This document shows, piece after piece, positions 1,636 to 49,437 of a DNA stretch of 50,604 nt; the first letter of the stretch is position 1, and the number at the start of each line of letters is the position of its first letter. Source of the stretch: Campylobacteraceae bacterium (lineage in GTDB: Bacteria > Campylobacterota > Campylobacteria > Campylobacterales > Sulfurovaceae). Location: positions 1 through 50,604 of the forward strand of contig JALVXC010000061.1 in the NCBI GenBank assembly GCA_027038275.1, given 5' to 3'. Made by a program: the position numbers and the translations under genes. The notes beneath the pieces are model-generated. The model had not been told where the DNA came from and searched no databases. It saw nothing but the letters and a program-made list of their open reading frames with translations.

Positions 1636-1650
1636 AGGGCTATTAATCTT

Positions 1651-1719
1651 AGTACCGTTCACGCTAAGTAAATCCAAATTTAACGATAAGAGAAAGGTAC
1701 AGGTACAAGGCAGATTTTT
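1651..1719 (+). repeat. Truncated copy of the nested-palindrome element (remnant C)
   Basis: Positions 1681-1719 match 48228-48266 at 38 of 39 bases; the single difference is in the A-run after CGATAAG. Upstream, 1651-1680 aligns at nearly equal length with the outer left arm of the 48 kb element (both begin AGTACC and end near TTTAACGATAAG) but has diverged. The conserved GGACTAGC core and the entire right half are absent; after CAGATTTTT the sequence changes to an unrelated hairpin. Seen directly: a dispersed repeat. Inferred: a degraded or half copy. Confidence 0.85.
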
Positions 1720-43052: not shown

Positions 43053-43320
43053 AACCTGAGTTCGACGGAATACCATATCCACAAAAGCCTAAAAATAGGT
43101 CAGATTTTCAAAATCAAAATTTGCAGGACTAGCCGTCGCTAATTCAAAAATTTTATTTTGGAAAGATTGCCTATTTTTAGGCTTCCCTACGGGTTTTACA
43201 AGGTTTCCCATATGCTTAGACAGATTTTTTTGAATTAACTAGCTAGTCCTGCAAAAATCTGCCGTTGCCTATGAAAAACCTCGTAAAATTGTGGATATGG
43301 TATTCCGTCGAACTCAGGTT
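43053..43320. repeat. Nested dyad-symmetric element A
   Basis: Occupies most of the 323-bp spacer before nadE. Perfect outer arms 43053-43084 / 43289-43320 (32 bp). Just inside, the left stem 43085-43099 / 43170-43184 (15 of 15) and the right stem 43194-43206 / 43276-43288 (12 of 13). Each stem's loop holds one copy of a conserved core, GCAGGACTAGC then TAATTCAA, in opposite orientation (43123-43150 and 43227-43252). The centre is CCCTACGGG. TTAAA flanks both ends (with arms read as starting ACCTGAG). It ends 21 bases before the nadE ATG. Confidence 0.92.
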
Positions 43321-46552: not shown

Positions 46553-47473
46553 ATGAAGATGTCATCTGAAAAGAGAGCTACGGTTGTAGCAACTGTTGTA
46601 GCAACTACACTTACCTTTGTTAAGTTTTTTATAGGGGTAGCTTCTGGTTCTGTAGCTGTTTTAGCTTCGGCTATTGACTCGTTGTTAGATACTCTAATAT
46701 CTATCTTTAACTTTTTTGCTATTAAAAAGGCTGAAGAGAAAGCTAGTGATGAGTTTCAGTATGGAAAAGGGAAAATTCAAGCCATAGCCGCCGTTATTGA
46801 GGGTACGGTTATTACTATCTCTGGGCTTTATATTATCTATGAGGCGATACAAAAGGCTCTACATCATGAAGAGACAACATTTTTGACCCCTGCTATTGTG
46901 GTCATGGTTATCTCTATAGTTGTTACTTTTGTTTTGGTTCACTATCTTCTTTCTGTCTCAAAGGCTACTAATAATTTGGTTATTAAGTCTGATGCACTGC
47001 ATTATCAAACTGACCTGTGGTCAAATGGGGTGATTTTACTCTCATTGGGGATTGTCTATCTAACAGGTTGGGAGTGGATAGATGCACTCTTTGGGTTTGG
47101 AATTGGAGTCTATATTATCTACTCTGCTTATGAGATTATAGAGGAGGGGATTTTAATTTTACTCGATAGAGCATTAGATAAAGAGACTGTAGAGAAGATA
47201 AAAAATATAATTAAATCTCATAAAGAGGTCAATGACTACCACTGGTTAAAGACACGAACAGATGGAAAGGTTAACTTTGTAGAGGTTCATTTAGTATTAG
47301 AGCCAAATTTAACATTAATGGAGGCACACCGTATATCTGATGAGATAGAGGAGCAGATAATGAAGTTAGACAGAAAAAAAGCATGGGTTATTACTCCTCA
47401 CTATGACCCCTTTGATGACTCTGAAATCAATGAGTGTTTTGCATCTGGTCAATTAAAGTGTAAAGAGTCATGA
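46553..47473 (+). CDS. Cation diffusion facilitator (FieF-like)
   Basis: A 306-residue metal/proton antiporter with six predicted spans and a cytoplasmic C-terminal domain. Site A is Asp-Asp (IDSLLDTL, TM2) with His-Asp (HYQTDLWSN, TM5), the DDHD arrangement of FieF-type iron/zinc exporters. The usual FGHGK loop reads YGKGK. It starts 2 bases after the DUF2130 gene and overlaps hemD by 4 bases (ATGA). Confidence 0.9.
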   Translation: MKMSSEKRATVVATVVATTLTFVKFFIGVASGSVAVLASAIDSLLDTLISIFNFFAIKKAEEKASDEFQYGKGKIQAIAAVIEGTVITISGLYIIYEAIQKALHHEETTFLTPAIVVMVISIVVTFVLVHYLLSVSKATNNLVIKSDALHYQTDLWSNGVILLSLGIVYLTGWEWIDALFGFGIGVYIIYSAYEIIEEGILILLDRALDKETVEKIKNIIKSHKEVNDYHWLKTRTDGKVNFVEVHLVLEPNLTLMEAHRISDEIEEQIMKLDRKKAWVITPHYDPFDDSEINECFASGQLKCKES

Positions 47474-48102
47474 TTTATTTACTCTCCCCACTAAAAAAAG
47501 AGGGTGTTGCCTCTTTGCCTATGATTTCATTTGAGCTTGTAGCCGACAAGATAGACTTCTCCTCTTGTGATACCTTAATGTTTACCTCAAAACAGGCTGT
47601 TGTCTCTGCAAATAGTATTGATGAGTCTTGGAAAAACTTTCCTTGCATAGCCATTGGTGGAGCGACTAAAAAGAAGATAGAGGAGTTGGGGGGTAGGGTA
47701 ATTTACTACCCTAAAGAGTTTTATGGAGAGGTTTTAGCTAAAGATATTGAAGCCTTTTTTTCTACTAAAAAGATTCTCTATCTTCGTCCTAAAGTTGTCT
47801 CTTTTGACTCAAAAGCATATTTAGAAAAAGTTGGTATAGACCTACAAGAGCAGATTATTTATGAGACCTCTTGTGTGAAGTATGCTAAAGAGCAGAAGCC
47901 TAAAGATGGTGCTGTTATTATCTTTACCTCTCCATCTACGATTAAGTGCTTTTTTAAGAACTTTGAGTGGGATAGCTCTTATATGGCTGTTTTGATTGGT
48001 CATGCGACTAAAGAGCATCTGCCTGACTATTGTCGCTATGTTGTGGCTGATGAGCCTTTGATTGATGCGTGTGTGCAGAAGGCTAGAGAAGTTATATTAT
48101 AA
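47470..48102 (+). CDS. hemD: Uroporphyrinogen-III synthase
   Basis: A 210-residue HemD that closes hydroxymethylbilane with D-ring inversion, giving the precursor of haem, sirohaem and B12. The family is highly divergent; recognised by FTSKQAVVSAN, CIAIGGATKKKIEELG, ILYLRPK and VIIFTSPSTIKCFF in the usual order. Translation is coupled to the efflux gene by ATGA. Confidence 0.87.
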   Translation: MIYLLSPLKKEGVASLPMISFELVADKIDFSSCDTLMFTSKQAVVSANSIDESWKNFPCIAIGGATKKKIEELGGRVIYYPKEFYGEVLAKDIEAFFSTKKILYLRPKVVSFDSKAYLEKVGIDLQEQIIYETSCVKYAKEQKPKDGAVIIFTSPSTIKCFFKNFEWDSSYMAVLIGHATKEHLPDYCRYVVADEPLIDACVQKAREVIL

Positions 48103-48196: not shown

Positions 48197-48470
48197 TAAG
48201 TACCTGACCATAATAAATGACATATTTTAACGATAAGAAAAAGGTACAGGTACAAGGCAGATTTTTGCAGGACTAGCCTTAGCTAATTCAAGAAAATCTA
48301 ACGCCGTAGATGTGCCTTTTTCTTATCGCCCATAGGGTGAAATGATTTTTCCTCATCTTTGCACGAAAATATTTTTGAATTAGCTAAGGCTAGTCCTTCA
48401 GATATTTTTGCACAAATCTAAGGCAAACTCATTTCATTAAAATATGTCATTTATTATGGTCAGGTACTTA
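48197..48470. repeat. Nested dyad-symmetric element B
   Basis: Fills most of the 387-bp spacer between hemD and moxR. Perfect outer arms 48197-48230 / 48437-48470 (34 bp). Left stem 48231-48244 / 48315-48328 (14 of 14); right stem 48338-48345 / 48429-48436 (8 of 8). Cores 48269-48291 and 48375-48397 are perfectly complementary (23 bp) and hold GGACTAGC then TAATTCAA. The centre is CCCATAGGG. The order of parts equals element A while the arm and stem sequences differ. It ends 19 bases before the moxR start. Confidence 0.92.
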
Positions 48471-48489
48471 TAAACTTTAGGAGTTTTCA

Positions 48490-49437
48490 TTGAACCCAAT
48501 AGTAGAAAATATAAAAAAAGAGATAGCCAAAGTAATGGTTGGTCAAGAGAAGATGATAGAGGGGCTTTTAATAGGTCTTTTAACGCGTGGGCATATTTTG
48601 CTAGAGGGAGTCCCAGGCTTAGCAAAGACTACAGCTGTTAATGCTTTGGCTTCCTCTTTGGGGTTAGACTTTAAACGAGTTCAGTTTACCCCCGATTTGC
48701 TTCCTAGTGATATTATAGGAACAGAGATTTATGACCCATCTTCTAACTCTTTTAGAATTAAACAAGGTCCAGTCTTTACTAACTTACTCTTAGCAGATGA
48801 GATTAACAGAGCACCTGCTAAAGTACAATCGGCACTTTTAGAGGTAATGCAGGAGCGACAAGTGACTATTGGAGACCACACCTTTAAAATAGATTTACCA
48901 TTTTTAGTTATGGCAACACAAAACCCTGTAGAGCAAGAGGGTGCTTACGAGTTACCAGAGGCTCAACTTGACCGATTTCTTATGAAGATAGTAGTAGGTT
49001 ACAATATGAGAGCCGAAGAGTTAGAGATAGCACGACGTGTAGCCAATAACAGTTTTGGAAAGATAAGACAAGTAGCAAGTATAGTAGACTTGGAGTATAT
49101 TCGCCATGAGGCTATGTCGGTACATATTGACCCTGAGGTAGAGGCGTATATTGTTGAGCTTATCTTTGCTACACGTGAGCCAGAGAAGTATCTGTTAGAG
49201 GAGCTTGTGCCATATATTGAGTATGGGGCAAGTCCAAGAGCTACTATTGATTTGTATAAGGCTGCACGAGCAGTAGCTTTTCTTAAGGGGCGAGATTATG
49301 TCTCACCCATTGAAGTAGCCTACATTGCCAAAGAGGTTTTAAGACATCGTATTATTCTTTCTTATGAAGCCCAAGCAGAGGGGATTACTCAAGATATGAT
49401 TGTTGAGAAAGTATTGGGAATTGTTCCTATTCCATAG
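48490..49437 (+). CDS. MoxR-family AAA+ ATPase
   Basis: A 315-residue AAA+ chaperone-like ATPase: Walker A GVPGLAKTT (40-48), Walker B LLLADEINRAP (99-109), and QNPVEQEGAYELPEAQLDRF for sensor 1 and the following loop. MoxR proteins work with DUF58 and VWA-domain partners, and those follow. The TTG start has TAGGAG 6 bases upstream; no ATG fits better. Confidence 0.93.
   Translation: MNPIVENIKKEIAKVMVGQEKMIEGLLIGLLTRGHILLEGVPGLAKTTAVNALASSLGLDFKRVQFTPDLLPSDIIGTEIYDPSSNSFRIKQGPVFTNLLLADEINRAPAKVQSALLEVMQERQVTIGDHTFKIDLPFLVMATQNPVEQEGAYELPEAQLDRFLMKIVVGYNMRAEELEIARRVANNSFGKIRQVASIVDLEYIRHEAMSVHIDPEVEAYIVELIFATREPEKYLLEELVPYIEYGASPRATIDLYKAARAVAFLKGRDYVSPIEVAYIAKEVLRHRIILSYEAQAEGITQDMIVEKVLGIVPIP

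Follow-up and report, generated by a model that had tools for sequence, protein, structure and literature searches.

A family of short bacterial insertions with a conserved folding interior and ends probably borrowed from insertion sequences

Positions 48197-48470 of the window (the whole stretch of 50,604 nucleotides that was analysed) hold element B, a non-coding insertion of 270 bp with inverted ends of 32 bp, which is enclosed by a TA duplication (Table 1). B is a member of a dispersed repeat family that is probably made up of MITEs with ends borrowed from insertion sequences (IS) and a conserved folding cassette as their interior. The marks of MITEs are present, namely a length below 500 bp without coding capacity, terminal inverted repeats, target duplication with mobility, and ends shared with IS (the B-type ends excepted). 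An earlier sequence-only reading of this DNA set out the parts of B and was silent on its identity as a mobile insertion.

Table 1. Positions of the parts of element B, of element A and of a truncated copy in the window
Feature	Positions	Strand	Basis
TA target-site duplication, left	48197..48198	.	sequence; one TA versus two in the empty and filled site of a relative
Left terminal inverted repeat of B, 32 bp	48199..48230	+	exact reverse complement of 48437-48468
Hairpin 1 of B, type I module	48231..48328	+ (core strand)	covariance model R1 at 48232-48327, 90.1 bits, E 4e-22
Core of hairpin 1 of B, GGACTAGCCTTAGCTAATTCAA	48270..48291	+	pattern match; core stem covaries among copies
Linker CCCATAGGG, small hairpin between modules of B	48329..48337	+	CCCnnnGGG at about position 131, shared by nearly all full elements
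Hairpin 2 of B, divergent 99-nt module	48338..48436	- (core strand)	R1 at 48343-48431 on -, 39.1 bits; fold z -5.2
Core of hairpin 2 of B	48375..48396	-	pattern match
Right terminal inverted repeat of B	48437..48468	-	reverse complement of left repeat
TA target-site duplication, right	48469..48470	.	sequence
Element A, same family, IS982-type ends AACCTGAGTTCGAC, TAA/TAA flanks	43053..43320	+	ends matched to IS982
Type II hairpin of A	43085..43184	+	R1 at 43094-43175, 36.1 bits; fold z -7.4
Type I hairpin of A	43194..43288	-	R1, 69.1 bits
Truncated third copy: L113-type end and left half of a B-like hairpin 1, broken before the core	1650..1719	+	

The interior of B consists of two hairpins, of 98 and 99 nt, separated by CCCATAGGG. 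The sequence-only reading had given B stems of 34, 14 and 8 bp and a left loop of 70 bases as in element A, and this description is exact letter by letter: hairpin 1 has a perfect outer stem of 14 bp around a 70-base loop, hairpin 2 has a perfect outer stem of 8 bp, and the outer arm of 34 bp comprises the 32-bp terminal repeat and the duplicated target TA. The minimum-free-energy fold of hairpin 1 is the consensus fold, its sense strand reaching -42.5 kcal/mol versus -35.7 kcal/mol for the antisense, and the RNA fold of the entire element (-120.3 kcal/mol versus -50.1 +/- 5.0 for shuffles; z -14) has the architecture as drawn. Hairpin 2 falls in neither of the two main module types described below and belongs to a small divergent group together with modules of L050, L093, L113 and L227. 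The 23-base core AGGACTAGCCTTAGCTAATTCAA starts at 48269 (+), with its reverse complement at 48375. Three exact matches to the core pattern occur across the window, every one within A or B, and a scan of the window with R1 yields exactly four matches, which are the four hairpins of these two elements. B is located between hemD (47470-48102) and a gene for a moxR-type AAA ATPase (48490 onwards); the site upstream of moxR (48470-48490; L205) has been hit both by B and by a copy in the complete genome G063, the two having unrelated ends and coming from distant lineages.

Element A has a 15-bp stem, a 70-base loop and the linker CCCTACGGG at 43185-43193, so that CCCnnnGGG indeed stands between the inner hairpins of both elements, as had been claimed (CCCATAGGG in B versus CCCTACGGG in A). 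In the truncated copy a different end (GTACCGTTCACGC...) is fused to the same left half of hairpin 1 as in B, which is direct evidence for end exchange inside the window.

Campylobacterota and sulphur-oxidising Gammaproteobacteria together contributed 111 distinct full elements to the collected set, 100 of them with a readable CCCnnnGGG centre. Size, order of parts and internal-loop letters are common to the elements family-wide, and stem letters are not. The usual layout is TA, an arm of about 32 bp (range 31-37 bp), a hairpin, CCCnnnGGG, an inverted hairpin, an arm and TA, and full copies are mostly 264-280 bp long without coding capacity. In type I hairpins (96-98 nt) the conserved letters CAAGGC precede the inner stem, AACG follows it and GCAGG/CAA surround the core; type II hairpins (~99 nt) carry GTAAGATTT and AAGATTGCC in their place. 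Both types are paired in several elements of Campylobacterota, and the gammaproteobacterial copies possess two type I-like modules. Short forms consist of the arms only (52-58 bp; L181, L265, L267) or of a single hairpin (L104, L172, L189, L269).

The host genome (188 contigs) contains about ten full copies with three end types (A-type, B-type and L037-type), along with many fragments, including solitary B arms with one end fixed and the other ragged, and single half-copies. The core pattern was recovered in 57 of the 199 relatives scanned, and a scan of public genomes found the core in Sulfurovum, Sulfurimonas, Sulfurospirillum, Nitratifractor, Candidatus Thiodiazotropha, Chromatiaceae and others. 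With up to ten places scored per genome, R1 matches 71 of 397 Campylobacterota genomes, belonging to 25 of 68 genera. Among ten gammaproteobacterial MAGs nine have 13-118 module matches and the tenth has 5, the three highest counts being 118, 101 and 49. Metagenome contigs often end inside or beside the core palindrome (L081, L090, L112, L118, L146), and copy numbers in MAGs are thus undercounted. Weak R1 matches in Sphingomonadales, Colwellia and one Flavobacteriales genome were left out of the family counts; those in Sphingomonadales and Colwellia genomes (G583, G584, G586) have E ~1e-10, and a 164-bp single-hairpin candidate from the Flavobacteriales genome (L087:6518-6681; R1 30 bits), whose loops are type I-like and whose ends differ, indicates that the family may reach into Bacteroidota.

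The type I hairpins are kept as the same fold across distant bacteria while their letters change. In alignment A1 (43 type I modules below ~88% similarity, aligned by sequence) 91.7% of stem cells are paired, versus 55.8 +/- 0.9% upon shuffling and 33-47% after sliding. Its covariation score of 0.895 compares with 0.223 shuffled, and RNAalifold returns the same fold, the invariant columns being mostly in loops. The sequence-only reading had proposed selection for folding from two copies and suggested that compensating changes between A and B be counted and that the stems of collected copies be checked for covariation. With many copies replacing the two, its proposal is borne out for the hairpin stems by strong covariation, 35 of the 36 pairs in A1 having changed on both sides. 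The core stem covaries too (TAGC/GCTA, TACC/GGTA, TCGC/GCGA, TCCC/GGGA and TAAC/GTTA, as well as TGGC/GCCA and more distant forms). The same argument fails for the outer arms: the difference between those of A and B, which had been read as covariation, reflects different transposon end types swapped blockwise and not base-by-base compensation. Similarly, the complementarity of the two cores over 23 bp is exact in B and is not conserved, matching loops being present in only 5 of 73 elements. Core-to-core pairing was accordingly rejected as a conserved feature, and the conserved fold is that of each core with itself. Copies with broken stems, which were expected to speak against structural selection, do exist in the form of the chimeras L186 and L133; given that such copies are rare and look like products of recombination, structural selection is not overturned.

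A comparable pattern might arise by concerted evolution without selection, if template switching during replication kept the palindromes perfect and changed both arms together. Such a process would accord with terminal arms that are 94% identical within an element and ~34% between elements, and active recombination is seen in the chimeras and truncated copies. However, across phyla stem and loop lengths vary by no more than 1-3 nt, several positions in the loops are invariant, type I wobble is strand-specific and the small insertions in copies are located mostly in loops; as none of these features is predicted by correction alone, this explanation appears improbable.

The wobble pairs bear on the molecule in which the fold is selected. 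On the core-bearing strand of type I modules 40 G.T pairs are found versus 8 A.C pairs (p 3e-6), or 20 versus 4 when counted by module (p 0.0015), both p-values being optimistic because the modules share ancestry. These counts exclude the core and two conserved T.G columns; the conserved T.G at stem positions 14-15 inflate the G.T excess of the outer stem, and the type I bias persists without them. For type II modules (24:16) and for terminal arms (30:17) the bias falls short of significance. Since the wobble pairs favour one strand, a single-stranded fold, of RNA or ssDNA, seems to be selected. Evolution of the type I hairpin thus appears to be that of a single strand that folds and has a defined polarity (RNA and ssDNA being alike in this respect), whereas the terminal arms appear to behave as duplex DNA.

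One possibility is that the fold is needed as DNA, with hairpins extruded from single-stranded or supercoiled DNA being bound by a host factor or transposase and driving replication or transposition of the element, in the way proposed for REPINs with RAYT or for the hairpins of IS200/IS605. The strand-specific wobble is explained by ssDNA as well as by RNA, the modules are dyad-symmetric and dispersed as a unit, and REPINs with compensatory changes offer a precedent (PMC3116915). Conversely, the TA duplication and the IS982- and IS5-type ends indicate DDE transposition, for which a folded interior is unnecessary, and the module is without the conserved GTAG foot, the A1 consensus having no conserved flank of either REP-foot type, GTAG or CGTC. 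We consider a DNA role in transposition rather unlikely, though it is a serious rival to action as RNA, which is our best guess.

Mobility is evident from the site of copy L205, which lies upstream of moxR as B does in the window and in several relatives is empty with continuous flanks (GTTAA-TA-AACC): the empty site has a single TA and the filled site has TA on both sides of the element. Duplications of 3 bp, not TA, occur at element A and most A-type copies, whose ends (AACCTGAGTTCGAC) are those of an IS982-family remnant (L230; PF13612, E 4.8e-24) that itself contains an A-type copy. Two complete IS, 1272 and 1352 bp long (L259, L260), are flanked by ends of the form AGGGCACCTCTAAAAAC; judged by eye, their transposase ORFs look IS5-family-like, and the end type AGGGCACC is common to elements and these two IS. 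Given that two end types match IS982 and IS5 transposons, the interior would be a folding cassette behind unrelated transposon ends. No IS with B-type ends was found, and the loci examined included no autonomous form in which an IS carries the module. In the host genome DDE_Tnp_1, DDE_3 and DDE_Tnp_1_3 have no match; DDE_3 (IS630) is absent in 12 of the 13 genomes searched, the host included, and the sole match has non-matching ends. In the complete genome G063, which carries 13 nearly identical copies, no IS630 or IS4/IS5 transposase was found.

Comparison of B with L113 and L227, in which the hairpins are ~87% alike and the arms 38% alike, and of the chimeras with broken stems, indicates that ends and interiors recombine, the ends being replaced as blocks. 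Another notion is that the elements are MITEs of the common kind, in which palindromic transposon ends give rise to hairpins as a neutral side effect. While strong folding is common in bacterial MITEs (PMC10969869), the interior is here common to elements with unrelated ends, and its architecture and loop letters are conserved across phyla, making this notion very improbable.

In simple ORF calling the genes flanking copies are co-directional in 35 cases, divergent in 20 and convergent in 10, and copies are often 0-50 bp from genes, with none inside an ORF. In one instance (L200:1577; G000:C66:10576) a uvrC-like gene has its ATG exactly where a solitary B arm ends, and the arm thus appears to supply the start codon. 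Relative to co-directional neighbours the type I module shows no orientation preference (sense:antisense 10:11), which is predicted by head-to-head symmetry, yet also fits the absence of an RNA role.

In the mechanism that we propose, IS would lend the ends and a transposase acting in trans would move the element, duplicating TA (3 bp with IS982-type ends). The interior would present two ~97-nt hairpins head to head with the CCCnnnGGG hairpin in the middle, selection retaining the shape and, in the loops, a few letters (AAGGC/AACG, GCAGG/CAA), but not the letters of the stems. As the modules are inverted, every DNA strand or transcript, of either sense, would expose one module in the active orientation. 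We tentatively suggest that the fold would then act as RNA in read-through transcripts and, through stability, processing or relief of polarity, make the insertion tolerable to neighbouring genes in either orientation. With similar caution, we might envisage the interior as a mobile structured-RNA (or ssDNA) cassette that is passed between unrelated IS families by end exchange, independent of orientation, and is kept from Campylobacterota to Gammaproteobacteria (possibly also in Bacteroidota and Alphaproteobacteria) because its fold advantages the element in the host.

Several known systems share features with this family. A known Rfam RNA family was rejected as its identity, there being no match at the gathering threshold and only chance-level matches at relaxed thresholds. 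The REPINs are doublets of REP units mobilised by RAYT and possess a conserved REP foot, whereas the present family has IS-type ends, TA or 3-bp duplications and 97-nt modules with internal loops. REPINs are not known to have IS-type terminal repeats with target duplication. They resemble the present family in having two inverted palindromic units, a symmetric fold and compensatory changes (PMC3116915). Bacterial MITEs in general are short, non-coding, dispersed and intergenic, give strongly folding transcripts and are moved in trans (PMC10969869, PMC3733652). Correia/NEMIS, ERIC, RUP, Nezha and the QMITEs of Coxiella resemble the present family in their short non-coding dispersed intergenic form, inverted ends, target duplication, folding and mobility in trans; in contrast to these, its covarying interior sits behind ends from two or more unrelated IS families, across phyla, a case not encountered in the papers searched. 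Intergenic RNA motifs of Borrelia plasmids also show compensatory changes in inverted repeats (PMC2674063), but are short plasmid stem-loops and not mobile multi-hairpin elements. The Tn3-derived TIMEs (PMC4133298) are likewise non-autonomous mosaic MITEs, but with Tn3-derived ends, and serve as a precedent for mosaicism only, with no sequence comparison to the present family. Plasmids searched with B, and plasmids and phages searched with a gammaproteobacterial copy, gave no match. The core sequence was absent from the papers searched, and no description of the family was found in the open papers searched; the subscription literature was mostly outside this search and an earlier description is possible.

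In the usual view of bacterial MITEs the stretch between the transposon ends is meaningless filler, but in this family it is the part that is conserved. A compensatory fold across phyla behind varied ends makes it directly testable whether selected functional structure is carried by MITEs, which is an old question. R1 provides an annotation model for a repeat with more than 100 module matches in some genomes, whose palindromes break metagenome assemblies.

The core, e.g. GGACTACCCGTAGGTAATTC, resembles the 806R primer site of 16S rRNA (GGACTAC...), which is probably a coincidence. Different hairpins of A-type copies (L034, L038, L040, L230) carry an identical inserted hairpin of 26-27 bases (GTCCTCACTTCGTTGCGGAGTT...) in their core. 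At L275 tandem units of 800 bp each contain a AGGGAACCTCTAAAAA end and a weak R1 match.
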